64,000 nucleotides of DNA from Chitinophaga vietnamensis. GTDB taxonomy: Bacteria > Bacteroidota > Bacteroidia > Chitinophagales > Chitinophagaceae. The notes beneath the pieces were generated by a model that saw nothing but the letters and a program-made list of their open reading frames with translations, had not been told where the DNA came from and searched no databases. Shown piece after piece: positions 18,405 to 62,486 of the stretch (positions within the stretch are counted from its first letter, which is position 1; each line of letters opens with the position of its first letter). Both the position numbers and the translations under genes were made by a program. The stretch covers positions 682,001-746,000 of the forward strand of contig NZ_CABHMS010000001.1 of the NCBI RefSeq assembly GCF_902167635.1. The letters run 5' to 3'.

Positions 18405-19694
18405 ATGAATTCCACAACTATTGGTAAGTATCGCTGGAGAATCTGTGCCTTGCTTTTCGTTGCCACCACCATTAACTACATAGACCGTCAGGTATTGGGT
18501 TTGCTGAAGGGTGATCTCTCTAAAGAGTTCAACTGGTCAGAAACGGATTACAGTAACCTCGTAATGACTTTTTCTGCGGCTTATTCTATTGGCCTGCTTT
18601 TTTTTGGCCGCCTGGTAGACAAGCTCGGTTCCAAGATCGGGTATACCGTTTCTATTGTGGTATGGAGCCTTTCCGCGATGGCGCATGCTTTGGTAAGAAC
18701 CACGCTGGGATTCGGCATCGTACGATCTGTATTGGGTATCAGTGAAGCGGGCAATTTCCCGGCGGCTATCAAAGCAACGGCGGAGTGGTTTCCGAAGAAA
18801 GAGCGCGCACTGGCCACTGGTATCTTTAACAGCGGCGCTAATATTGCAGCCGTAGTAGGGCCTTTGATGGTATATTGGCTGGCCCGCAACCATGGCTGGC
18901 GTCATGCCTTTTTCTGGACGGGCGCTATCGGCTTTGCCTGGCTGATACTCTGGATCATCTATTACGAAATCCCTGGCCGCCACAAGAAAGTAAGCAAGGA
19001 AGAATATGATTATATCCATTCCGATCAGGAAGTGGAAGCAGAGAAGCCCAAGCCGGTGAAATGGGCGAAGCTGCTGGGTATCCGTCAAACATGGGCATTT
19101 GTGTTCGGCAAGTTGCTCACCGACCCGGTATGGTGGTTCTTTCTTTTCTGGTTGCCTACTTACCTGGAATCTATCTTCCATGTGGATATGAAGTCGAACC
19201 TCGGTTTACCGATCATCGTCATCTATTCTATCACCAGCTTTGGCAGTATTGGCGGCGGATGGTTATCTTCCTATCTGATCAAAAGCGGCTGGCCTATTTT
19301 CAAGGCGCGTAAAATATCGATGCTCATTTTCGCTCTATGTGTGTTGCCAATCACATTGATACAATTCACCAATAACGTATGGATGGCCATCCTGATCATC
19401 AGTTTGGCTACAGCGGCGCACCAGGCCTGGTCTGCCACTATCTTCACCACTGCTTCCGATATGTTCCCGAAACGCGCCGTTAGCTCCGTAGTGGGTATCG
19501 GCGGCATGGCCGGCTCTATTGGCGGCACATTGTTCCCGATAGTAGTAGGTTCCATGTTACAGCATTACAAAATGATGGGCAACATCGGTATTGGTTACAA
19601 TATCCTTTTCGGTATTTGCAGCGTCGCATACCTGCTGGCATGGCTCGTGATGCACCTGTTCGCCCCGAAGATGGAACAAGTTAGATTGCCTTAG
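18405..19694 (+). CDS. exuT: MFS hexuronate transporter
   Basis: 429 residues, about 12 membrane segments, of the anion:cation symporter (ExuT/UhpC-like) branch of the major facilitator superfamily. The N-terminus RICALLFVATTINYIDRQVL and the helix 2-3 loop GRLVDKLGSKIGY are typical of ExuT. It imports galacturonate or glucuronate across the inner membrane by proton symport. It is last in the uxaB-uxaC-kdgK-eda run (34 bp gap), possibly with its own operator-controlled promoter. It ends at the edge of a long inverted repeat shared with convergent uxaA. The precise substrate is inferred from context. Confidence 0.88.
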   Translation: MNSTTIGKYRWRICALLFVATTINYIDRQVLGLLKGDLSKEFNWSETDYSNLVMTFSAAYSIGLLFFGRLVDKLGSKIGYTVSIVVWSLSAMAHALVRTTLGFGIVRSVLGISEAGNFPAAIKATAEWFPKKERALATGIFNSGANIAAVVGPLMVYWLARNHGWRHAFFWTGAIGFAWLILWIIYYEIPGRHKKVSKEEYDYIHSDQEVEAEKPKPVKWAKLLGIRQTWAFVFGKLLTDPVWWFFLFWLPTYLESIFHVDMKSNLGLPIIVIYSITSFGSIGGGWLSSYLIKSGWPIFKARKISMLIFALCVLPITLIQFTNNVWMAILIISLATAAHQAWSATIFTTASDMFPKRAVSSVVGIGGMAGSIGGTLFPIVVGSMLQHYKMMGNIGIGYNILFGICSVAYLLAWLVMHLFAPKMEQVRLP

Positions 19695-19817
19695 GATTTA
19701 CGAATTTATTGATTTACGGATTTATTGATTTAAATAAAAGCGGAGATGACAACATTGTTCATCTCCGCTTTTTTATTTAAATCAATAAATCCGTAAATCA
19801 ATAAATCCGTAAATCCT
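19693..19817. repeat. Long inverted repeat filling the exuT/uxaA convergent gap (IR-1)
   Basis: Arms of about 43 bp differing at one position. They are made of alternating words (GATTTACG, GATTTATT) and end in ATTTAAAT. A 10-bp GC-rich inner stem (GCGGAGATGA / TCATCTCCGC) surrounds the core CAACATTGT. The element reaches from the exuT stop codon to two bases before the uxaA stop codon, so it probably terminates both transcripts. The core CAACATTGTTCATC recurs in the element at 42004-42116. Confidence 0.9.
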
Positions 19818-19818
19818 C

Positions 19819-21465
19819 CTAAAGGCTTACGCCGCGCTTCCAGGGGATGAAATCATCCTGGTGCAGTTGTTCTGCTTTGGTATGCACTTCACCGCTGGCG
19901 GCTTTGATCACGTATTCGAGAATTTCTTCGCCCATTTCAGCGATAGAGCGTTGGCCGCTGATGATGGAGCCGGTGTCGATGTCGATGATATCGGGCATGC
20001 GGGTGGCAAGACGGGTATTGGTGGCGAGCTTTACGACGGGGGCGATCGGGTTGCCGGTAGGCGTGCCGAGGCCGGTGGTAAAGAGTACGATATTGGCGCC
20101 GGAGCCTACTTCTGCGGAGGTGGACTCTACGTCGTTGCCAGGTGTGCAGAGGAGGTTGAGACCTGGTTTGGTCACATACTCCGTATAGTCGAGCACGTCA
20201 GTAACGGGGGAGGTGCCGCCTTTTTTCGCTGCCCCGGCGGATTTGATGGCATCGGTGATGAGGCCGTCTTTGATATTGCCGGGAGAGGGGTTCATGTAGA
20301 AGCCTGAACCTACAGACTGGGCCTGGTTTTCATACGCACGCATGATGCGGATGAATTTATCGGATATTTCGTCGGTAGTGCAGCGGTTGATCAGTTCCTG
20401 TTCTACGCCGCATAGTTCCGGAAATTCAGAAAGGATGCTGGTGCCGCCCAATGCAACGAGGAGGTCGGAAGTATGACCTACAGCAGGGTTGGCGGAGATG
20501 CCGGAGAAACCGTCGGAGCCGCCGCATTCCAGTCCTATTACCAGTTTGGAGAGCGGTGCGGGTTGGCGGGACAGTTTGTTGGCTTCTACCAATGCGAGGA
20601 AAGTATCTTTGATGGCGGCTGATAGCATGGCAAATTCAGAAGGGCTCTTCTGTTGCTCGTATACCAGTACCGGTTTGCTGAAGGCAGGGTTGAGTTTTTT
20701 CACTGATTCCATGAGGATGGATACCTGCGCGTGCTGGCAACCAAGACTGAGCACTGTGGCGCCGGCAACGTTCGGGTGGTGGATATAACCTGCCAGCAGG
20801 GCGCAGAGCGCGTCGGAGTCCTGGCGTGTGCCACCGCAGCCGCCCTCATGTGTGAGGAACTTGATGCCGTCGATATTCGGGAATATTGTATTTCGTTTAT
20901 CCGTTTCCGTTACCTTGCCTGCTTCATATTGCCTGATGGCGTCGAGATCACCTTTTTTGTAGAGTGATACGAGGTCTTGCACCTGATCGTTATATACCTC
21001 TGCGGGCGCGAATCCCAGGCCTTTTTCGAAGGCGGTTTTGATCACGCTTACGTTTCTGTTTTCGCAGAAAACGAGGGGGATCACCAGCCAGTAGTTCCGG
21101 GTGCCAACTTGTCCGTCTTCACGATGATAACCCATGAAGGTGCGGTTGGCCCATCTGCTCACATCAGGCGCCTGCCATTGCTCGCTGTCATCTTTTTCAT
21201 GGAAGGCGTTGGCGTCGTGCACTACATTTTCAGTGGTCATGCCTTCGCCGCTTCTGATGGTCCTGGTGGCTTTACCTACCAGTACGCCGTACATGAGGAT
21301 GGCGTCGCCGCTGTTGATATCGTTGATCAGGAATTTATGTTTAGCAGGAATATTTTGCTTTAATTCGATCTGGTGGCCGTTAAAGGAGATATTGGTTCCG
21401 GCTGGCAGGTCCTGAAGGGCTACCAACACATTATCGTCTGGATGAATTTGTAAATAAGCGTTCAT
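19819..21465 (-). CDS. uxaA: Altronate dehydratase
   Basis: 548 residues with both parts of the UxaA/GarD family: an N-terminal SAF-like domain (about 1-95, with PDDNVLVALQDL) and the large C-terminal domain with FLTHEGGCGGTRQDS, LGCQHAQVS and GLECGGSDGFSGISANPA. It dehydrates D-altronate to KDG, using an iron or manganese centre in this family. It is convergent with exuT and divergent from the heparinase-fold lyase gene, so the operator at 21642 could control both sides. Confidence 0.94.
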   Translation of the reverse strand: MNAYLQIHPDDNVLVALQDLPAGTNISFNGHQIELKQNIPAKHKFLINDINSGDAILMYGVLVGKATRTIRSGEGMTTENVVHDANAFHEKDDSEQWQAPDVSRWANRTFMGYHREDGQVGTRNYWLVIPLVFCENRNVSVIKTAFEKGLGFAPAEVYNDQVQDLVSLYKKGDLDAIRQYEAGKVTETDKRNTIFPNIDGIKFLTHEGGCGGTRQDSDALCALLAGYIHHPNVAGATVLSLGCQHAQVSILMESVKKLNPAFSKPVLVYEQQKSPSEFAMLSAAIKDTFLALVEANKLSRQPAPLSKLVIGLECGGSDGFSGISANPAVGHTSDLLVALGGTSILSEFPELCGVEQELINRCTTDEISDKFIRIMRAYENQAQSVGSGFYMNPSPGNIKDGLITDAIKSAGAAKKGGTSPVTDVLDYTEYVTKPGLNLLCTPGNDVESTSAEVGSGANIVLFTTGLGTPTGNPIAPVVKLATNTRLATRMPDIIDIDTGSIISGQRSIAEMGEEILEYVIKAASGEVHTKAEQLHQDDFIPWKRGVSL

Positions 21466-23923: not shown

Positions 23924-23978
23924 TATTGTAGCGGATGAATATGATCCACGAATGTATCATTGTATCGGATGAAAAAAC

Positions 23979-24570
23979 GATCTACCAATATATCGCCCCT
24001 ATGGGGGCGGATTGCGGTATATGAAAAACGATCTACCAATATATCGCCCCTACGGGGCGGATTGTGGTGGATAAAAAATGATCTACCAATATATCGCCCC
24101 TATGGGGGCGGATTGTGGTGGATAAAAAATGATCTACCAATATATCGCCCCTATGGGGGCGGATTGTGGTGGATAAAAAATGATCTACCAATATATCGCC
24201 CCTATGGGGGCGGATTGTGGTATATGAAAAATGATCTACCAATATATCGCCCCTACGGGGCGGATTGCGGTAGATGAAAAATGATCTACCAATATATCGC
24301 CCCTATGGGGGCGGATTGTAGCAAAAAAAATGATCTACCAATATATCGCCCCAGCGGGGCGGATTGTGGTATATGAAAAACGATCTACCAATATATCGCC
24401 CCTATGGGGCGGATTGCGGTGGATGAAAAATGATCTACCAATATATCGCCCCTATGGGGGCAGATTGTAGCAAAAAAAATGGTCTACCAATATATCGCCC
24501 CAGCGGGGCGACATATTGGTAGAGAAATAGCTATCAAGAGCATCACGCCCCGTAGGGGCGTAATATTGGT
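23979..24570. repeat. Tandem array of eleven ~50-bp hairpin (REP-like) units
   Basis: Units begin at 23979, 24030, 24080, 24131, 24182, 24233, 24283, 24332, 24382, 24432 and 24481 (49-51 bp each). Each reads GATCTACCAATATATCGCCCC, loop, GGGGCG, then a variable GATTGTGGT.GATAAAAAA tail. Loops are TATG, TAC, TAT or AGC, while the six-base stem never changes. The last unit extends to a near-perfect 39-bp palindrome, with CTACCAATAT.TCGCCCC mirrored by GGGGCGACATATTGGTAG. A degenerate unit (ACGCCCC-GTA-GGGGCGT) follows at 24544-24560. The array fills most of the 892-bp gap between the lyase and kduI. The gap is not coding. Confidence 0.95.
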
Positions 24571-24613
24571 AGAAAAAAAATTCAATAATTACTAAAACAT
24601 CTAACAGCAATAT

Positions 24614-30794: not shown

Positions 30795-32054
30795 ATGGAC
30801 AGACGTCATTTCCTGAAAGCAGTACCACTGGCCGGCGCGGCCACTGCCTTGCATACCGACAAAGGGCTATTTCATGATATCGCGGCGCCTGCTGCTCCCA
30901 AAGGGTCTGACCGTGATTACCTGGCGAACCTGTTACTACGTATATGCCATCCCGTTATTGACCATTTGAGCAAGGAACAGCTGCGCTGGCAGATGCCTAA
31001 AGCCACTTCGCCGGGTTATGGCAAGCCGGTGGATAAAGTCACTTACCTGGAAGCCTTTGGCCGCACGCTGGCCGGCCTGGCGCCCTGGCTGGAAATAGGG
31101 CCCGACAATACGGTAGAGGGAAGCCAACGCATTCAAATGATCGACGCTACACGCCTGGCACTGGCCAATGCCGTGAATCCGGCCTCAGCGGACTATATGA
31201 ACTTCACCGGTAAGTACGATGCACAACCCCTGGTGGACGGCGCTTTCCTGGCGCATGGACTGCTGCGTGCGCCAACACAGCTGTGGGAGCCCGCCAGCGG
31301 CCATACCAAGCTACAGGTGATCGATGCATTGAAAAGCCTGCGCAGCATCAAAGCCTTCAACAATAACTGGCTGCTGTTTGCCGCCATGATAGAAACCGCC
31401 CTGCTGCAATTCGGCGCGGAATGGGACCGTCAGCCGGTAGACCTGGCCATCAACAAAATGATGGAATGGTACAAAGGCGACGGCATGTACGGCGATGGCG
31501 CACAATTTCATTTCGACTACTACAATTCCTTTGTGATCCATCCGATGCTCACCGATATCCTGAAGGTGCTGGCAGAGAAAGGTGTGGGCAGCAAAGAACA
31601 ATATGCCTTGCAGCTAAAACGTATGCAGCGCTATGGCGAGATACTGGAACGCCAGATATCGCCCGAAGGCGCTTTCCCCGTGGTAGGGCGCTCTATGGCT
31701 TACCGCAGCGGCGCTTTCCAGGCGCTCGCGCAACTGGCGCTGGAACGGCAATTGCCGCCTTCACTATCGCCGGGACAAGTAAGAAGCGCACTAACGGCTA
31801 TGGCTAAACGCATTTTTGATACTCCCGGCACTTTTGATGCCAATGGCTGGTTACAGATCGGCTTCTGCGGCCATCAACCGCAGATCGGTGACGGATATAT
31901 TTCTACCGGCAGCCTTTACCTCTGTACCACCGGTTTCCTGCCGCTGGGACTTCACACAGGAGATCCTTTCTGGACCTCCCCATCAGAGGACTGGACGGCT
32001 AAGAAGGTGTACGGCGGCAGCGGGGTGAAAGCGGATCATGCGATTGATATTTAA
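30795..32054 (+). CDS. DUF2264 family protein, probable uronic-acid glycosidase with Tat-like signal
   Basis: 419 residues from the ATG at 30795; a TTG six bases earlier is less likely. The N-terminus MDRRHFLKAVPLAGAATAL has a twin-arginine-type motif (RRHFLK). The body matches DUF2264: DRDYLANLLLRICHPVIDHL, GRTLAGLAPWLE, WLLFAAMIETALLQFG, GMYGDGAQFHFDYYNSFVIHP and GRSMAYRSGAFQALAQLAL. Some members of this group have been assigned to GH154 as beta-glucuronidases; whether this one is active is inferred. It is last in the kdu operon, six bases after GH88. Its stop codon is the first base-pair of a 254-bp inverted repeat. Confidence 0.82.
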   Translation: MDRRHFLKAVPLAGAATALHTDKGLFHDIAAPAAPKGSDRDYLANLLLRICHPVIDHLSKEQLRWQMPKATSPGYGKPVDKVTYLEAFGRTLAGLAPWLEIGPDNTVEGSQRIQMIDATRLALANAVNPASADYMNFTGKYDAQPLVDGAFLAHGLLRAPTQLWEPASGHTKLQVIDALKSLRSIKAFNNNWLLFAAMIETALLQFGAEWDRQPVDLAINKMMEWYKGDGMYGDGAQFHFDYYNSFVIHPMLTDILKVLAEKGVGSKEQYALQLKRMQRYGEILERQISPEGAFPVVGRSMAYRSGAFQALAQLALERQLPPSLSPGQVRSALTAMAKRIFDTPGTFDANGWLQIGFCGHQPQIGDGYISTGSLYLCTTGFLPLGLHTGDPFWTSPSEDWTAKKVYGGSGVKADHAIDI

Positions 32055-32307
32055 GCGACTGTTGTCTGGCTCAGGATTATAATGATTGAAAGGATTACCA
32101 GGATTTTTTTTTATCAGGATTAATAAAGATTAAAGGAGATTGATGGGAAGATCAACGAGGTTCCAGCCCTTGAAGCGCTCAAAGCGCTTCAAGGGCTATT
32201 ATCGCGAATATCTTTCCATCAATCTCCTTTAATCTTTATTAATCCTGATAAAAAAAATCCTGGTAATCCTTTCAATCATTATAATCCTGAGCCAGACAAC
32301 AGTCGCT
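32054..32307. repeat. Very long inverted repeat filling a convergent gap (IR-2)
   Basis: Outer arms of about 92 bp that match except for one base of length difference in a T/A run (nine versus eight). Then an unpaired stretch of about 19 bases on each side, then a perfect 15-bp inner stem (AGCCCTTGAAGCGCT) with a CAA loop. The arms contain GGATTA-type words at irregular 10-17-base steps. The element begins at the last base of the DUF2264 stop codon and reaches into the stop codon of the convergent GNAT gene. The inner stem matches the terminator family at 8912 and 45881. Confidence 0.95.
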
Positions 32308-40410: not shown

Positions 40411-41889
40411 ATGAAGATGAAAAAAATCAGTGTATATATTTTATTGTTGACGATAGCAGGACTGGGTGCGTGCCAGAAAGACAAGCTCAATCCGGTGCCT
40501 ACCACCGATATGCCCGATTTCCTTGCATTTCAGAACAGCGAGCGTATTGCCAGTCAGGTGAATGGTTTGTATGCCGTGATGAAAAACGGCAAGTTCCTGG
40601 GCGGAAAATTCCAGATTGCGAATGAGGTGAGAGGAGAAGATTACCAGAACGAACTATCTAACAGCGTTACGCTGAACCTCACCTGGCGCATGTTTGTGGG
40701 CAATGAAACACAGGAAGTGAAAGAGATATGGTCGCAGGGATACCTGGCGATTAACAATGCCAATGTGTTCCTGGACGGCATGGCCGCTGCAGGCACAAAG
40801 GTAGTGGGCGATTCCTTATCCAAAGTGTATATCGGCGAAGCGAAATTTGTGAGGGCCTTGTCTTATTTCTCCCTGTTGCAGTTATATGCGCGTCCGCATT
40901 GGGATGGCGCCGGCAGCAAACCCGGTCTGGTCCTGTATCTCGACGGGCACACCAAATTAGGTAACTATGCGCGCGCCCGCAGCACGGTGAATGAAATTTA
41001 TGCGCAGGTGATCAAAGACCTTGACTCCGCAGAGATGTTGCTGCCTAAAAAGAAAGCCGGTACTACAGATGCTGTGACCCGCGCCAACGCATGGTCGGCC
41101 ATTGCGCTCAAAGCAAGGGCGTACCTCTACATGGAGCAATACGACAAGGTAGTGGCCGAGGCCTCCAAGATCGTATCTGCAACAGCGCCTTTTGTATCGC
41201 CTGGCAACCATGGCCTGGAGCCAGACATCACGAAAGTATTTGCCACGCCTTATACTACTGCCGAATCTATTTTCTCTTTGCCTTTCACCAGTACGGTAGG
41301 TGATTTCCCCGGCACGCAAACACAGCTGGGCTTTTATTTCTCGCCTAATACCGCTGGCGGGAATGGCGAGTATTCGCTCATCTCAACCGGTATCATCTCG
41401 GATTCCAGCTGGAAACCACAGACCGATGCCCGCAGGAAATTTTTGCTGGCAGTACCACAATCCGGTGGCAAGCCGCCAAAATATTATCTGAATAAATATC
41501 CGACTCCCAGCCCTTATACCGACTGGGCGCCGATCCTGCGTTATGCAGAAGTGTTGCTGAACCTGGCGGAGGCTAGAGTTCGTATATCCGGCACCGTTGA
41601 TGCCGGCGCTGTGGCATTGTTGAGTGCAGTAAGGCACCGTTCCGATCCCAGCGTCACTTACACCACCGCCGACTTCGCCGACGCAGCTACATTACTCGCA
41701 GCCATTCAGAAAGAGAAACATATCGAGTTACTGGGAGAAGGATTCAGAAGTATGGAGATCACGCGCCAGGGCGCTACTTTCCCTGCCAGAGGCGGCGTGG
41801 GCGCGGTGGCGCCATCTGCGAAAGCCTATATCTGGCCTATCTCTTCAGATGAACTTGTTTATAATAAATTATGTGTGGATAACCAGTAG
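40411..41889 (+). CDS. SusD/RagB-family outer-membrane nutrient-binding lipoprotein
   Basis: 492 residues, ATG at 40411 with a second ATG two codons on. The lipoprotein signal ends in TIAGLGAC, followed by the SusD body: TPR-like helices in WSQGYLAINNANVFLDGM, YIGEAKFVRALSYFSLLQLY and AWSAIALKARAYLYMEQYDK, and the C-terminal RYAEVLLNLAEARVR and EKHIELLGEGFRSMEITRQG. It acts as the lid of the SusC pore at the cell surface. It is cotranscribed with susC and followed by a hairpin terminator. The ligand is not known. Confidence 0.96.
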   Translation: MKMKKISVYILLLTIAGLGACQKDKLNPVPTTDMPDFLAFQNSERIASQVNGLYAVMKNGKFLGGKFQIANEVRGEDYQNELSNSVTLNLTWRMFVGNETQEVKEIWSQGYLAINNANVFLDGMAAAGTKVVGDSLSKVYIGEAKFVRALSYFSLLQLYARPHWDGAGSKPGLVLYLDGHTKLGNYARARSTVNEIYAQVIKDLDSAEMLLPKKKAGTTDAVTRANAWSAIALKARAYLYMEQYDKVVAEASKIVSATAPFVSPGNHGLEPDITKVFATPYTTAESIFSLPFTSTVGDFPGTQTQLGFYFSPNTAGGNGEYSLISTGIISDSSWKPQTDARRKFLLAVPQSGGKPPKYYLNKYPTPSPYTDWAPILRYAEVLLNLAEARVRISGTVDAGAVALLSAVRHRSDPSVTYTTADFADAATLLAAIQKEKHIELLGEGFRSMEITRQGATFPARGGVGAVAPSAKAYIWPISSDELVYNKLCVDNQ

Positions 41890-41968: not shown

Positions 41969-41996
41969 AGGGCTACCTTATCAGGTGGCCCTTTTT
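41969..41996 (+). terminator. Terminator of the susCD operon
   Basis: Nine-base arms AGGGCTACC / GGTGGCCCT (one G-U pair), a six-base loop and a run of five T. It lies about 80 bp after the susD stop and just before the inverted repeat at 42004. Confidence 0.85.
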
Positions 41997-42003
41997 AATG
42001 TGC

Positions 42004-42116
42004 ATTTACGGATTTTTTGATTTACGGATTTATTGATTTAATTGGAAGGAAGATGGCAACATTGTTCATCCGCTCCAGTTAAATCAATAAATCCGTAAAT
42101 CAAAAAATCCATAAAT
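42004..42116. repeat. Inverted repeat between convergent susD and oxygenase genes (IR-3)
   Basis: Arms of about 37 bp with one mismatch, made of TTTACGGAT and TTTATTGAT words. They surround a less perfect inner region with the core GCAACATTGTTCATCC. Arms and core match the element at 19693-19817, so the two are copies of one dispersed family that have diverged. The element ends two bases before the stop codon of the minus-strand oxygenase gene. Confidence 0.85.
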
Positions 42117-42118
42117 CC

Positions 42119-42829
42119 TTAAGCTGCGTCGTGGAAGATGATGCCCAGCGTGTAGCGTTGGCCGGTGTGTACGGAGCTGACGCCGTGTTTCATGGCTACG
42201 CGGTAGTAGCCGTGGGAGCCTTTGACGGGCCTGAAGTTGGTGGTGAACAGGAGCATATCGCCCTGGCGGGGTTGGAGCACGATAGCCCTGGACTGCGCTC
42301 TGGGGCGCTGTTCCGTGAGTACGAACTCGCCGCCGGTATAGTCTTTACCGGGTTCGTTGAGGAAGAGGACGAGTTGTATCGGGAAGAAGAGATCGCCGTA
42401 GAGGTCCTGGTGGAGCGTGTTGTGACCGCCTTCGCCGTATTGCAGGATGAGGACGGTGGGCTTTGTTTGTCCTTTGCTGTGGCAGAGGGCTTGCAGTGCC
42501 TGGAATTCCGCAGGGTAAGTGCCGGGAATGTTGAGCGCTTTCATCCAGGCATTGGCGACGGGAGCCAGGTGAGGGTATACGGTTTCGCGTATCTGTTGTA
42601 TGACTAACGGTAACGGATATGTGAAATATTTATATTCCCCGAGGCCGAAGCGGTAGCGTTCCATGGTAATGGTTTTGCGGTACAGCTCCGGCTGTGGATA
42701 TTGATGGATCAGCGTTTGACAGGCGGCTGCATCCAGTACGCCGGGTAGCAGTGCATAGCCGTGCTGGTGCAGGTGATCCCTGGCCGAATCCCAGTTCAGC
42801 GCTTGTATGCGGGTGATGATGTTATGCAT
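42119..42829 (-). CDS. 2OG-Fe(II) oxygenase of the DNA-repair-associated (Oxygenase-NA-like) type
   Basis: 236 residues, double-stranded beta-helix fold. The iron site is seen as H140-Q-D142 in LHQDLYGDLFFP with a distal His (H215 or H221), and R225 in GQRYTLGI can bind the carboxylate of 2-oxoglutarate. The sequence fits the Pfam group named Oxygenase-NA, thought to remove methyl damage from nucleic acids; that function is less proven than for AlkB. Its ATG is four bases after the stop of an Ada-like gene on the same strand, which strongly supports a role in alkylation repair. Confidence 0.8.
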   Translation of the reverse strand: MHNIITRIQALNWDSARDHLHQHGYALLPGVLDAAACQTLIHQYPQPELYRKTITMERYRFGLGEYKYFTYPLPLVIQQIRETVYPHLAPVANAWMKALNIPGTYPAEFQALQALCHSKGQTKPTVLILQYGEGGHNTLHQDLYGDLFFPIQLVLFLNEPGKDYTGGEFVLTEQRPRAQSRAIVLQPRQGDMLLFTTNFRPVKGSHGYYRVAMKHGVSSVHTGQRYTLGIIFHDAA

Positions 42830-43723: not shown

Positions 43724-43807
43724 TTGCGGATTATTTAGGGATTTACGGATTTTTTGATGTGAGAATTTAGGGAAAATCAAAAAATCCGTAAATCAAAAAA
43801 TCCGCAA
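43724..43807. repeat. Imperfect inverted repeat in a divergent gap (IR-4)
   Basis: A perfect 20-bp arm ATTTACGGATTTTTTGAT(xx) and outer GCGGATT arms interrupted by an unmatched ATTTAGGG. It is built from the same TTTACGGATTTTTTGAT words as the elements at 19693 and 42004. Unlike those, it lies between two divergent start codons (ada-like and cytochrome c genes), where a terminator role makes little sense. Confidence 0.75.
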
Positions 43808-43845
43808 ATAATTTGTAGATTTCATACTAAATAAAACCCATGGTC

Positions 43846-44280
43846 ATGAAAATCAAGAAGAATTTTCTCATAGTGGCTGCTGCGCTGTTATCGGCCGGCA
43901 CCCTGTGTTCCCTGTCACTGCCTCAAGAAAAAGAGGGTCCTAAAAATCTGAAGGTATTGCCTAAAAGTATCAGCCATGAAGAGTTGATCGTGGTGATGAG
44001 AAACTTTAATGCATCATTAGGCGTAAAATGTAATTTCTGTCATGCACAGGACAAAAACGATCCCAAACATCTGGACTTCGCCAGTGATGAGAATCCACAC
44101 AAGGGCGTAGCGAGGGATATGATGCGGATGACCAAACGTATCAACAAGAAATTCTTCAAGAGCAGCGATAACATGACCATCACCTGCTATTCCTGCCACC
44201 ATGGAAACGAAGAGCCGAAGAGCAAGCCGGATGAAGTAGCTGCACCCCCTGCGGCGCCACAAAGCCCGTCTTCAAAATAA
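43846..44280 (+). CDS. Exported di-heme cytochrome c (photosynthetic-reaction-centre-cytochrome-like)
   Basis: 144 residues from the ATG at 43846; an in-frame ATG six bases earlier is possible. An N-terminal hydrophobic segment (KNFLIVAAALLSAGTLCSLS) serves as signal or anchor. Two CxxCH haem sites are present: C62-N-F-C65-H66 and C114-Y-S-C117-H118. The spacing and NLKVLPKSISHEELIVVMRNF resemble the c-type cytochrome family related to the reaction-centre cytochrome subunit, common in non-photosynthetic Bacteroidota. The tail is Pro/Ala-rich. Electron transfer in the periplasm is expected; the partner is unknown. It stands alone between two inverted repeats. Confidence 0.85.
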   Translation: MKIKKNFLIVAAALLSAGTLCSLSLPQEKEGPKNLKVLPKSISHEELIVVMRNFNASLGVKCNFCHAQDKNDPKHLDFASDENPHKGVARDMMRMTKRINKKFFKSSDNMTITCYSCHHGNEEPKSKPDEVAAPPAAPQSPSSK

Positions 44281-44282
44281 AA

Positions 44283-44369
44283 CTATTTGATTATTTGGGT
44301 ATTTTGATATTTAGCTTCGGAAAGACTTTCTCCGAAGCTAAATATCAAAATACCCAAATAATCAAATAA
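44283..44369. repeat. Perfect inverted repeat with 39-bp arms (IR-5)
   Basis: Arms 44283-44321 and 44331-44369 match at every position, with a nine-base loop (AAGACTTTC). The word pattern (ATTTGATTATTTGGGTATTTTGATATTTAG) relates it to the element at 59517. It starts two bases after the cytochrome stop codon. A possible small minus-strand gene ends inside its right arm. Confidence 0.95.
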
Positions 44370-59392: not shown

Positions 59393-59516
59393 GTTTCATA
59401 ACATTTAATGGTAAAGCAATGGACTATCAGAAAGAATGATCTCTTTCTGAAAAACTTGAAATAATGTAATACTTGTGGAAAACGTCGGGTTATGGGTTAC
59501 AGGTTAATGGGTTATT

Positions 59517-59594
59517 TAGTTATTTGGATATTTTATTATTTGGCTATTTGAAGATAACCGAAAATAGCCAAATAATAAAATATCCAAATAATTA
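59517..59594. repeat. Inverted repeat overlapping the GH2 stop codon (IR-6)
   Basis: Arms of about 32 bp with one mismatch, composed of TTATTTGGATATTTTATTATTT-like words related to the element at 44283, with a ~14-base central region. The right arm ends in the TAA stop codon of the minus-strand GH2 gene. On that strand it would be the first structure transcribed after GH2 and before the lanthipeptide-like gene. Confidence 0.9.
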
Positions 59595-62486
59595 ATTTTT
59601 TACTGCTGAGCCATACAATGTAATTTCTTTGATAGCCGCTTTGCTGCTTTCGGGTTGTATGCCACTCACCGTAATGCGCACCAGTTTCGCTGTGGTGGCC
59701 GGTATGACGACTGCTTTATAATCCTGTCCGGATACTTTTTCTGTGCTTTTTACTTCTTTCCAGTTAATGCCGTCATTTGATACGGCGATGTTGTAGGTAT
59801 ACCAGTCGCTGTCTTTTCCCCATATGATACGGCTGCCATTGAGCAGGCAGGCCGCTTTCAGGTCAATGGTGATCACCTGCGGGAAACTGGCGCTGCTGGC
59901 CGTCCAGCCGGTATTGGCATTGCCATCTGTGATGGTGGTAACGGTTGTTCCACCCGCTGTAACGATTTTATTTTGGAGAGATATTTCATGTAACGATGTG
60001 CTGTTGGTATTATCCGGATAGTAGTTTTTCTCCCGCAATTCGTATTCGCTTGTCCATGCAGCGTGGTTGCCATCATTTACAGTTGCCGTGGTGGCGGGCG
60101 TGGTACGGAACGTTTTTGTGGCAGATCTCAGGCCGGCGGAAGTGGCGCTGATACTGATGTTACCGGCTTTGTTGCCATGGCGGATGATGCCATAAGCGAT
60201 GCCGCCTTCAGTAGCCTGCCGCGCAATGCCTGCTGCCGGTATGTTACCACCTATCAGCGCGCCACTACCGGTAACGCTTATACGAATATCGTACGATTGC
60301 CCGGCGGTTGTATTGGATACCAGCGTGCCGTTACGGTCGCATACTTTTACATAGAAGGGCGTCATCTCCCAGCCGTTGGCCTGTGCCGGCTGCGGTGTTG
60401 CAGGGATCACGATCTCAAGGTGGTCTGGCGCCAATGGTGTACGCACTGTATGTTCCGCTACCTGCCGGCCGTCAACAAAGCCGATAGCTTTGAGGGCGCC
60501 CGCTTCATATTTGCCGGTGTGAAACAGGTAGTAAGGATAGCCTCCTTTGGCAGCTATATGCGGGGCAGTGACGGCATTTTGCGTACGGGTGCTTTGCCCG
60601 ACAAGATGCCCGTTACGGAAGAGTTGTACGGTGTCGCAATTGGAGCATACCAGCAGGTTGCTGTCTTCTGCGAGGTTGTTAAAGCTGGCAACGAACACCG
60701 TTGGTCCGTATGCCGGGTTACGTGGGTCTTGCATTGCCTGCAGCTGGTAGTAGCTGAATTTTTCATAGCGGTCGAGGTCCACCACGCCGCTGAAAGCGGT
60801 AACGGAATCGGAGCCGCGGGTATAGTCGTTATAGCTCCACACGAAATAGCCGCCTATCCTGGGGTTGGCATCGAGGCCGCCATGATCCCAGTAGCCGCCG
60901 GCATCTTCAGCGGTTTCACCATTGAGGGCATTCTGACGGAGGATACACTGGTTGATCATTCCTTTGGCGGTGTACATTCTGCTGGCACGCAGGCTGTGCT
61001 CTTTCGCGGCATCGGCCATCCAGGAATCGCCCCATTCACGGGTGAGGAAAGGGCGCGAAGGCATGGGGTCGGTGCCATCTTCATTCACTACCTTATAAGA
61101 TACATTGTAATAGCTGCGGCTGCGGGCATTGAAATCATCGGCTACAAACAGTTGGTTGCCGGGCATTTCCTCGTGTGCGATGGCTACGGCCTGTTGCATC
61201 CACCAGGCCGGTGTGGGCGATTCGTTGAGCGATGTTTCCCAAAGGAATACCGAAGGGTGGTTCCGGTCGCGGCGGATCATCTCCCGGATGTTCTGATAAG
61301 TATTGGCTACAAAAAGGGTGTCTTTGCTGAAGAACTGCCATCCTGGTTCGCATTCAATCACCAGCAGGCCGATGGAATCGCAGGCATCGAGGAAGGCGGG
61401 CGACTGCGGATAATGCGCGGCCCGCACCGCATTGAAGCCACCGCGTTTCAACTGGGCGGCGTCCAGGTACTGGAGGCGGTCCGCGGCCGCATCACCGATG
61501 TATTCATAAGCCTGATGCCTGTTGGCGCCCCGCAGGTAAAGCTTTTGACCGTTGAGATAAAACCCGTCTGCACGAAAATCCAGATGGCGTATACCCGTTC
61601 GCGTTAGTAGCGTATCGCATATCTTTCCATCCCGGTAAACAATAGATTGGAGCTTATATAAGTACGGATGATCGGGATGCCATAAAGATGGATGGGAGAC
61701 TGTAAACTGCTGTTGGAAAGTAGTATCTGCAGATGCCGGTAAAACCGCTTCGCTGGTGGCTGATGCCACTACATTGCCCTGTTCATCTGTCAACCTGGAT
61801 ATCAATCTTGTATTCGTATAATCGTCGCCGTTATTAACCAGGTGTGTACGCACCTGCACCGCAGCAGCCTGCGCACTCACGTCGGGATAGCTGACGAATA
61901 CGCCGCCACCTGCTACTTTATTGGCTTCCAGCGGATGGGAGATATGCAGCGGATCGGTGATCAGCAATTGCACATTGCGGTAGATGCCACCGAAATAATT
62001 GAAGTCCAGCTTGCCTTGCGGCTTGCCGGGAGGCGTTTGCGGATCGTCCAGGTTGGATACGCGCACTGCCAGGATGTTCTGCTGATCCCAGCGCAGGTGC
62101 TGCGTGATATCCACCACAAACCCGATGTAAGCGCCGGCATGTGTGGCGATCTCCCGGCCGTTGAGATATACGGTGCAATTCTTTTGCACGCCATCAAAGC
62201 AAATGCTGATGCGCTTGCCGCGGCATTCCGCCGGCAGGCGGAAGTAACGGCGGTACCAGCCGGCACCCTGGTATACCTTGTTGCCGCCATTGTGTTTCCT
62301 TTCAATGCGCATTACATGCGGTATGCTCACGGCGCTCCATTGATGGTCATTGAGGTCCGGGCTTGCCCCATCCGGCACATCGCCGCGATGGAAGGCCCAG
62401 TGTGTGTTAAAGTCAAGCACCCTGCGCGATTGCGCGCTGGCATGCAGGGTGGCGCAGAGGAAGAAGATGGAAAATAAATATCTCAC
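59592..62486 (-). CDS. GH2-family glycoside hydrolase with C-terminal discoidin-type module
   Basis: 964 residues, GTG start at 62486 that gives a good signal peptide (MRYLFSIFFLCATLHASAQ). Sugar-binding jelly roll (about 25-190), immunoglobulin-like domain, and the (beta/alpha)8 barrel with the acid/base Glu in LWETSLNESPTP and the nucleophile Glu in FLTREWGDSW. A DUF4982-like Ig domain and, at about 830-960, an F5/8 type C (discoidin) module follow (DGNANTGWTASSASFPQVITI). Likely a beta-galactosidase or beta-glucuronidase acting on complex glycans. It lies 60 bp after a susD gene on the same strand, so it belongs to a utilization locus continuing beyond the window. Confidence 0.92.
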   Translation of the reverse strand: MRYLFSIFFLCATLHASAQSRRVLDFNTHWAFHRGDVPDGASPDLNDHQWSAVSIPHVMRIERKHNGGNKVYQGAGWYRRYFRLPAECRGKRISICFDGVQKNCTVYLNGREIATHAGAYIGFVVDITQHLRWDQQNILAVRVSNLDDPQTPPGKPQGKLDFNYFGGIYRNVQLLITDPLHISHPLEANKVAGGGVFVSYPDVSAQAAAVQVRTHLVNNGDDYTNTRLISRLTDEQGNVVASATSEAVLPASADTTFQQQFTVSHPSLWHPDHPYLYKLQSIVYRDGKICDTLLTRTGIRHLDFRADGFYLNGQKLYLRGANRHQAYEYIGDAAADRLQYLDAAQLKRGGFNAVRAAHYPQSPAFLDACDSIGLLVIECEPGWQFFSKDTLFVANTYQNIREMIRRDRNHPSVFLWETSLNESPTPAWWMQQAVAIAHEEMPGNQLFVADDFNARSRSYYNVSYKVVNEDGTDPMPSRPFLTREWGDSWMADAAKEHSLRASRMYTAKGMINQCILRQNALNGETAEDAGGYWDHGGLDANPRIGGYFVWSYNDYTRGSDSVTAFSGVVDLDRYEKFSYYQLQAMQDPRNPAYGPTVFVASFNNLAEDSNLLVCSNCDTVQLFRNGHLVGQSTRTQNAVTAPHIAAKGGYPYYLFHTGKYEAGALKAIGFVDGRQVAEHTVRTPLAPDHLEIVIPATPQPAQANGWEMTPFYVKVCDRNGTLVSNTTAGQSYDIRISVTGSGALIGGNIPAAGIARQATEGGIAYGIIRHGNKAGNISISATSAGLRSATKTFRTTPATTATVNDGNHAAWTSEYELREKNYYPDNTNSTSLHEISLQNKIVTAGGTTVTTITDGNANTGWTASSASFPQVITIDLKAACLLNGSRIIWGKDSDWYTYNIAVSNDGINWKEVKSTEKVSGQDYKAVVIPATTAKLVRITVSGIQPESSKAAIKEITLYGSAVKN

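Follow-up and report, generated by a model that had tools for sequence, protein, structure and literature searches.

Tandem-armed palindromes dispersed between genes of Chitinophaga vietnamensis

Two long palindromes in a 64,000-nucleotide stretch of the Chitinophaga vietnamensis genome (hereafter the window) raise the question of how hairpins with common arms and a common core come to lie in separate gaps between genes. Both are present where the preliminary description placed them, at 19693-19817 (element 1; arms of 47 nt, 98% complementary, with 31 nt between) and at 42004-42116 (element 2; arms of 43 nt, 95% complementary, with 27 nt between), and the remaining palindromes of the window are collected with them in Table 1. 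The same description had the elements ending within two bases of a stop codon, which holds for both ends of element 1 and for the right end of element 2 and not for the left end of element 2, 114 bp away. In both elements an 8-nt unit, composed of ATTT and four variable letters, is repeated in tandem along each arm. The 14-mer CAACATTGTTCATC occurs exactly in both and elsewhere in the window has no match with fewer than two mismatches, and the arm 22-mer GATTTACGGATTTATTGATTTA has 11 matches in the window (at most three mismatches) as against 0 in 100 shuffles. No Rfam family matches the window at gathering score. Among named proteins, the closest to the product of gene 18405-19694, which adjoins element 1, come from Chitinophaga sp. 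Ak27 (86%) and C. fulva (85%).

Table 1. Palindromes and an adjoining hairpin in the window, with positions counted from its first letter.
Feature	Position	Strand	Description
Element 1, left arm	19693..19739	+	A-type array, 8-nt units; starts inside stop codon of + gene 18405-19694
Element 1, core	19740..19770	.	Stem GCGGAGATGA..TCATCTCCGC, loop CAACATTGT
Element 1, right arm	19771..19817	-	End 1 bp off stop of - gene 19819-21465
C-type palindrome	32054..32307	.	9-nt units; outer arms 58 nt, 100%; occupies convergent gap stop to stop
Terminator-like hairpin	41969..41992	+	Between + gene 40411-41889 and element 2; same region in G099, G041, G029
Element 2, left arm	42004..42046	+	114 bp past stop of + gene 40411-41889
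Element 2, core	42047..42073	.	Contains CAACATTGTTCATC, as in element 1
Element 2, right arm	42074..42116	-	2 bp off stop of - gene 42119-42829
Third A-type copy	43733..43810	.	Imperfect, weaker; divergent gap
E-type palindrome	44284..44368	.	TATTTG 8-nt units; arms 38 nt, 100%; begins 3 bp past stop of 43840-44280
E-type palindrome	59516..59595	.	Arms 34 nt, 97%; extends to end of - gene 59592-62486

Counts across the genome bear out the proposal that elements 1 and 2 are copies within a dispersed family, and further copies in the same genome are plentiful: in 6.3 Mb the arm 22-mer has 363 matches (170 forward, 193 reverse; at most two mismatches) and its reversed control 0, while the 19-nt core has 22 matches (at most three mismatches; 12 in one orientation and 10 in the other), again with a control of 0. 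Two of the 22 core matches are contig ends (the start of C2 and the end of C4; L168, L170), and these copies may be the two sides of a single palindrome at which the assembly broke. A de novo palindrome search was run on an 864-kb sample made up of the window, C1:1-400000 and C2:1-400000, and it returned 77 palindromes whose arms measure 22 nt or more; no called gene contains the centre of any of them. At arms of at least 26 nt and an identity of at least 0.88 (F family included), 66 palindromes were found in the sample as against 0 in each of five shuffles; palindromes of such length are not chance. For the 50 palindromes whose arms reach 30 nt or more, F included, the strongest period is 8 in 32, 9 in 8, 7 in 4 and another in 6, and the arms can be assigned to unit families A (GATTTACG, period 8), B (AATTACG, period 7), C (AGGATTACC, period 9) and E (TATTTGNN, period 8). 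Family F (CTACCAATAT..CGCCCC..GGGGCG) forms direct series, at window positions 23940-24590 and at L173 880-1400 and 1905-2240, and is different in kind from A-E. Composite arms, in which two unit families follow one another serially and are mirrored, occur at C1:349072 and C1:375840. The positional results below rest on a set of 54 elements from the 864-kb sample (identity at least 0.85; F family and arms below 26 nt excluded), in which the median arm length is 42 nt.

The 54 elements lie in 29 tandem, 20 convergent and 5 divergent gaps, genes having been called by a codon-usage script, so that gap types carry some error. Relative to the gaps of at least 60 bp that are available in the 864 kb, an element is held by 19 of the 50 convergent ones, 29 of the 235 tandem ones and 5 of the 91 divergent ones (Fisher, convergent versus tandem, 9e-5; convergent versus divergent, 2e-6). 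Placement is thus not random with respect to gene orientation, and the bias to convergent gaps that had been supposed from two copies is real; confinement to terminator positions is not, since 5 of the 54 are in divergent gaps. Most element ends that face a stop codon (57 of 69) are within 30 bp of it, although the 23 of these 57 that overlap an ORF end are weaker evidence because the arms contain stop codons and so terminate any ORF running into them; 8 of the 39 ends that face a start are within 30 bp of it. Proximity within 5 bp of a stop is seen in 26 of the 54 elements, as against a mean of 12.0 and a maximum of 18 when elements were placed at random in the same gaps (200 rounds). In 14 of the 20 element-bearing convergent gaps both ends are within 29 bp of stops. 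The leftover spacer in these gaps has a median of 14 bp (n=20), and convergent gaps that hold no element have a median length of 46 bp (n=73), a comparison that gives p=0.54 overall and p=4e-5 once element-free convergent gaps of 20 bp or less are removed; the difference emerges only after dropping the short gaps, and insertion into very short convergent gaps is therefore possible.

Five gaps of the window could be compared with those of relatives. At 19693, where both neighbours are conserved by eye, the gap of 124 bp is entirely element, and the same gap measures 84 bp in Ak27, 141 bp in CF118 and 144 bp in C. rhizophila, with plain terminators by eye; in C. fulva it measures 214 bp and holds a different inverted repeat (arms of 37 nt) around a terminator. 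The 251-bp gap at 32054 is entirely C-type, and in C. fulva it is ~92 bp with a plain terminator. In G041 and G029 (L318, L319) this gap has, directly past the stop, half an A-like array that lacks an opposite arm and precedes a terminator and extra DNA; the half array may be a remnant or an early stage. In Ak27 the conserved right gene is preceded by a palindrome built from 7-nt units (AAAGCAT; arm of 36 nt, 94%), and the left gene has no match. The divergent gap at 43733 spans 163 bp including the 78-bp element, and in relatives it is element-free at 219-376 bp. At 44284 the 121-bp gap contains an 85-bp element that runs from 3 bp past the stop to just before GTATCTTTG, within which relatives share CGTATCTTT or GTATCTTT; the gaps of the relatives are 138-172 bp long and hold a terminator by eye. 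At 42004 the left gene alone is common to the genomes, and its terminator is kept in C. vietnamensis, G041, C. fulva and G029. Beyond that terminator lie the A-type palindrome here and an A-like palindrome in G041, with an arm of 29 nt at 93% and 73 nt between the arms. In C. fulva this place holds an inverted array of 8-nt-like units that is visible by eye and was missed by the script, and in G029 it holds nothing. Little native spacer is thus left in four of the five gaps (19693, 32054, 43733 and 44284), which suggests that native spacer was lost and not split. Since syntenic DNA is only ~66-78% identical, the basis for this reading is gap length and the absence of terminators, and not alignment.

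How the arms stay alike can be approached by comparing them within and between copies. Arms were anchored at the core stem at 14 of the 22 core loci, six without a readable anchor pair and two duplicate arm pairs being left out. Across these 14 loci arm identity has a median of 93% (mean 84%) within a copy and 79% (mean 70%) between copies, and 53 of the 97 left-arm letters that depart from the majority (55%) are mirrored in the copy's own right arm as against 17% in other copies; no re-pairing in 5000 attained the observed mean, and the own partner is the best or tied match at only 9 of the 14 loci. A version of the comparison with end gaps (14 copies) gave medians of 0.89 within and 0.82 between, the own partner again being best in 9 of 14. 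Arms are perfect in 22 of the 54 elements, and the mismatched pairs of the whole set comprise 30 G/T, 26 A/C and 26 others among 2423 pairs; on the sense strand of the 29 tandem-gap elements there are 18 G.U, 16 A.C and 15 others. Selection on an RNA stem is expected to tolerate G.U above A.C, and the mismatches do not look as though they follow such a preference. The agreement of arms within a copy, together with the differences between copies, suggests that one arm has repeatedly been copied onto the other.

The arms also have a fixed polarity. The GATTT-like strand lies mainly in the left (5') arm in all 43 palindromes with at least two such motifs, and G exceeds C in the 5' arm of 37 of 38 tandem-armed palindromes here and of all 17 from the sampled relatives and other genera (54 of 55 in total). 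Among other palindromes G prevails by 14 to 10 (of 29) in relatives and by 14 to 1 (of 16) here, and with this last skew the excess of G extends beyond clear arrays. T exceeds A in 29 of 31 period-8 arms and in 0 of 3 period-7 arms. Within one family, polarity is common to the copies by descent. RNA stems are reported to favour G-C over C-G and U-A over A-U, a preference tied there to intrastrand template switching (PMC8794818). The direction of polarity here is the same, and by analogy a template-switch origin may be considered.

A role at transcript ends was suggested for the palindromes from the outset. Folding gives element 1 energies of -76.8 and -81.4 kcal/mol for the two strands (z -18.4 and -19.2), within a range of z from -7.6 to -19.2 over the seven folds made, and on the + strand a T-run comes after its GC-rich core hairpin. 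A T-rich 8-mer (at least six T) borders an outer edge in 24 of the 54 elements, both edges in 4 and neither in 30, and a T5 or A5 run is found inside 9 of the 54. A scan with the terminator consensus listed neither 19693-19817 nor 44284-44368 among its candidates, and at 32054-32307 it listed short hairpins along the right border; shuffled sequences give equal totals (21 vs 19.8 and 3 vs 4.5), so that the scan decides nothing. The palindromes at 19693, 32054 and 44284 may end transcription, and the proposal of a portable bidirectional terminator is plausible.

Outside C. vietnamensis, 10 of the 59 relatives from the same genus carry the arm motif, with 2 to 85 matches each, as does 1 of 39 other genomes of the order, with a single match. 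The B motif has 924 matches in G053 and 468 in G041; G047 was excluded from the B counts, its control of 679 nearly equalling the count of 714. C. fulva has a family of its own, with 39 matches of TGATTGCTGATTGCCCTGAT (at most three mismatches; control 0) and variants that are mirrored. Class C, with 208 matches in its own genome, at most four in each of 394 other genomes of the phylum, none same-genus, and a control of 0, appears close to private to C. vietnamensis. Tandem-armed palindromes were encountered in the sampled stretches of G041, G011, G030 and G057, and contig ends are no explanation of the elements, as G030, G041 and G057 are single-contig assemblies. In eight other relatives without SbcD the sampled stretches were free of palindromes with arms of 26 nt or more, and eight additional 20-kb stretches contained one palindrome, of a different kind. 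In G043 (C3:541432-541544) some 17 perfect 7-nt units (GAATTAC) run in one direction only, as in an array that lacks its mirror arm or has grown by slippage. Spirosoma, Mucilaginibacter and Larkinella (L105, L106, L125, L150) have other long palindromes, CACAGAG and TTTGTCATGCTGACGAAG being among their motifs, and these are possibly additional dispersed families. Exact matches of the arm 22-mer in viral contigs numbered 0. A literature search over titles and abstract openings, with subscription journals and preprints outside its scope, yielded no mention of tandem-armed palindromes in Chitinophaga.

Several explanations other than copying have to be weighed against these data. The elements could be miniature mobile elements, MITE- or REP-like, whose finished hairpins were moved by a transposase encoded elsewhere, the spacer being deleted later because the old terminator had become redundant. 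Cores common to the copies and present in both orientations (12 and 10) speak for such movement, and so does the bias to positions after genes, which is also reported for REPs: dispersed extragenic sequences, mainly between tandem and convergent genes and often downstream of coding regions, forming 20-40-bp palindromes that carry GTAG or CGTC as a tag on one end (PMC3733652). No constant tag was visible by eye at the element ends inspected. REP sequences flank RAYT genes. The single Y1_Tnp gene of C. vietnamensis has the F repeat on both sides, so that the genome likely does hold a REP/RAYT pair; however, the pair consists of F and Y1_Tnp, and the 3.3-kb locus contains no A-E array. Moreover, family A is found without Y1_Tnp in G011, G030 and G053, and family B also in G027, G034, G037 and G057, although the distribution alone is not clean, 7 of the 10 A-bearing congeners having the gene. 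The RAYT was on these grounds rejected as the mover of A-E, and identity with REPs or REPINs was rejected on the RAYT flank and on size. Y1_Tnp is the transposase family that was searched, and no target-site duplication was seen by eye in the inspected flanks of copies; with spacer apparently lost and not split, the classical miniature insertion that the preliminary description had entertained finds no support, and we regard movement by a transposase as unlikely. Ordinary selection on an RNA hairpin, acting as terminator or 3'-end protector, would instead keep the pairing through compensatory changes, with shared motifs left over from old duplications. The positions after stop codons and in convergent gaps agree with it, as do the very stable folds. 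However, perfect pairing in 22 of 54 elements over arms of median 42 nt, A.C as common as G.U, and 5 elements in divergent gaps speak against it, and a terminator has no need of unit arrays; this account we consider decidedly unlikely.

The palindromes might finally be replication debris that most bacteria clear by means of SbcCD and that accumulates in this lineage because SbcD was lost. In Escherichia coli SbcCD removes DNA hairpins (PMC3733652). Of 60 Chitinophaga genomes, 17 score above the cut-off of the SbcD model TIGR00619 (the copy in G009 has an internal stop), and the model detects no SbcD in C. vietnamensis or in any of the 10 other A-bearing congeners, and A or B reaches at least 10 matches in 16 of 43 SbcD-less and 1 of 17 SbcD-bearing genomes (Fisher 0.024). 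However, SbcD changes only twice, with two independent pairs, on a tree of 30 of the 60 genomes built from one short protein, so that ancestry explains the association equally and nothing independent remains. Overall palindrome density is 1.67 per 100 kb in SbcD-less and 1.29 in SbcD-bearing samples (for arms of at least 35 nt, 1.33 vs 0.57), 8 of 12 sampled SbcD-less relatives lack palindromes with arms of at least 26 nt, tandem-armed palindromes are present in SbcD-bearing Spirosoma, Larkinella and Cytophagales genomes, and the cores common to copies would be left unexplained. Loss of SbcD as a cause, an association confounded by ancestry, was accordingly retained as a weak rival and is very improbable.

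Taken as a whole, the results point to a class of dispersed, non-coding, tandem-armed palindromes in which degenerate arms of 7-9-nt units surround a short core, and which arose by copying and overwriting with no dedicated transposase, an account to which we give about an even chance. A copy would reach a new gap by replicative copying from another copy, through template switching or gene conversion at short homology, and would overwrite spacer that lacks coding or promoter function, so that the survivors extend between two stop codons, or from a stop codon to a promoter. During replication, fold-back template switching would keep the arms of one copy alike while their units vary by mutation and slippage, and where the native terminator has been lost the hairpin could serve as a bidirectional 3'-end or terminator structure, which would aid its persistence. 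No dedicated transposase is assumed in any of these steps. The account draws on the 363 arm and 22 core matches, the mirrored variants, the mismatches with no excess of G.U over A.C, the stop-adjacent ends, the composite arms, the little spacer left in four gaps and the reported capacity of template switching to make and mend perfect stems (PMC8794818). It is weakened in that no event has been observed and no relative is close enough for a before-and-after comparison, and by the overall spacer test (p=0.54), by an own partner that is best at only 9 of 14 loci, by the terminator kept at 42004 and by the 30 of 54 elements with no T-rich edge. A bolder version, which we put forward tentatively and with more doubt than belief, would make the elements selfish hairpins that have no transposase: units accrete outward on both arms through fold-back template switching, and the hairpins spread, consume dispensable spacer until they meet stop codons or promoters, and take over termination. 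The fixed polarity would then be the trace of directional copying, and different units, arising in different lineages, would strike the same gap repeatedly. On the most likely account, that of copying and overwriting, the elements are dispersed hairpins with no known transposase that are kept mirror-symmetric at the level of DNA and are tolerated, or used, as 3'-end structures. If this is right, part of the spacer DNA of these bacteria would be shaped by copying and not by insertion sequences or selection, and one soil genus would offer dozens to hundreds of natural replicates per genome for the origin, pairing and spread of hairpins. It would also be relevant to the evolution of perfect stems that do not pass through weak intermediates, and to the turnover of terminators beside flanking genes that stay in place.

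Known systems match these elements in part. Intergenic arrays of short units are formed by the heptamer repeats of bacteria, among them the TAACTGA repeats of Beggiatoaceae and the heptamers of Xanthomonas and Nostoc (PMC4679880 and, reportedly, PMC4692102). The bacterial heptamers so described are, however, direct repeats with one inverted case, whereas the arrays here come in mirrored pairs, one on either side of a core. Perfect stems can be made and mended by template switching (PMC8794818 and, reportedly, PMC7202029), and such template-switch or quasipalindrome stems arise by copying one arm from the other, as is proposed for the present elements, although the stems reported there are single loci and those here also form dispersed families. 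Bidirectional intrinsic terminators are alike in placing a strong hairpin that reads the same on both strands in convergent gaps, but the elements have much longer, AT-rich arms and related copies at many loci, 30 of the 54 have no T-rich outer edge, and 19693-19817 and 44284-44368 are absent from the candidates of the consensus scan. REPs and REPINs, as described above, are like the A-E elements dispersed extragenic palindromes after genes; however, the arms here are ~26-100 nt of 7-9-nt units in place of palindromes of 20-40 bp, and A-E are not at the Y1_Tnp gene and occur in relatives that lack it. The elements thus resemble REPs in place and terminators in shape.
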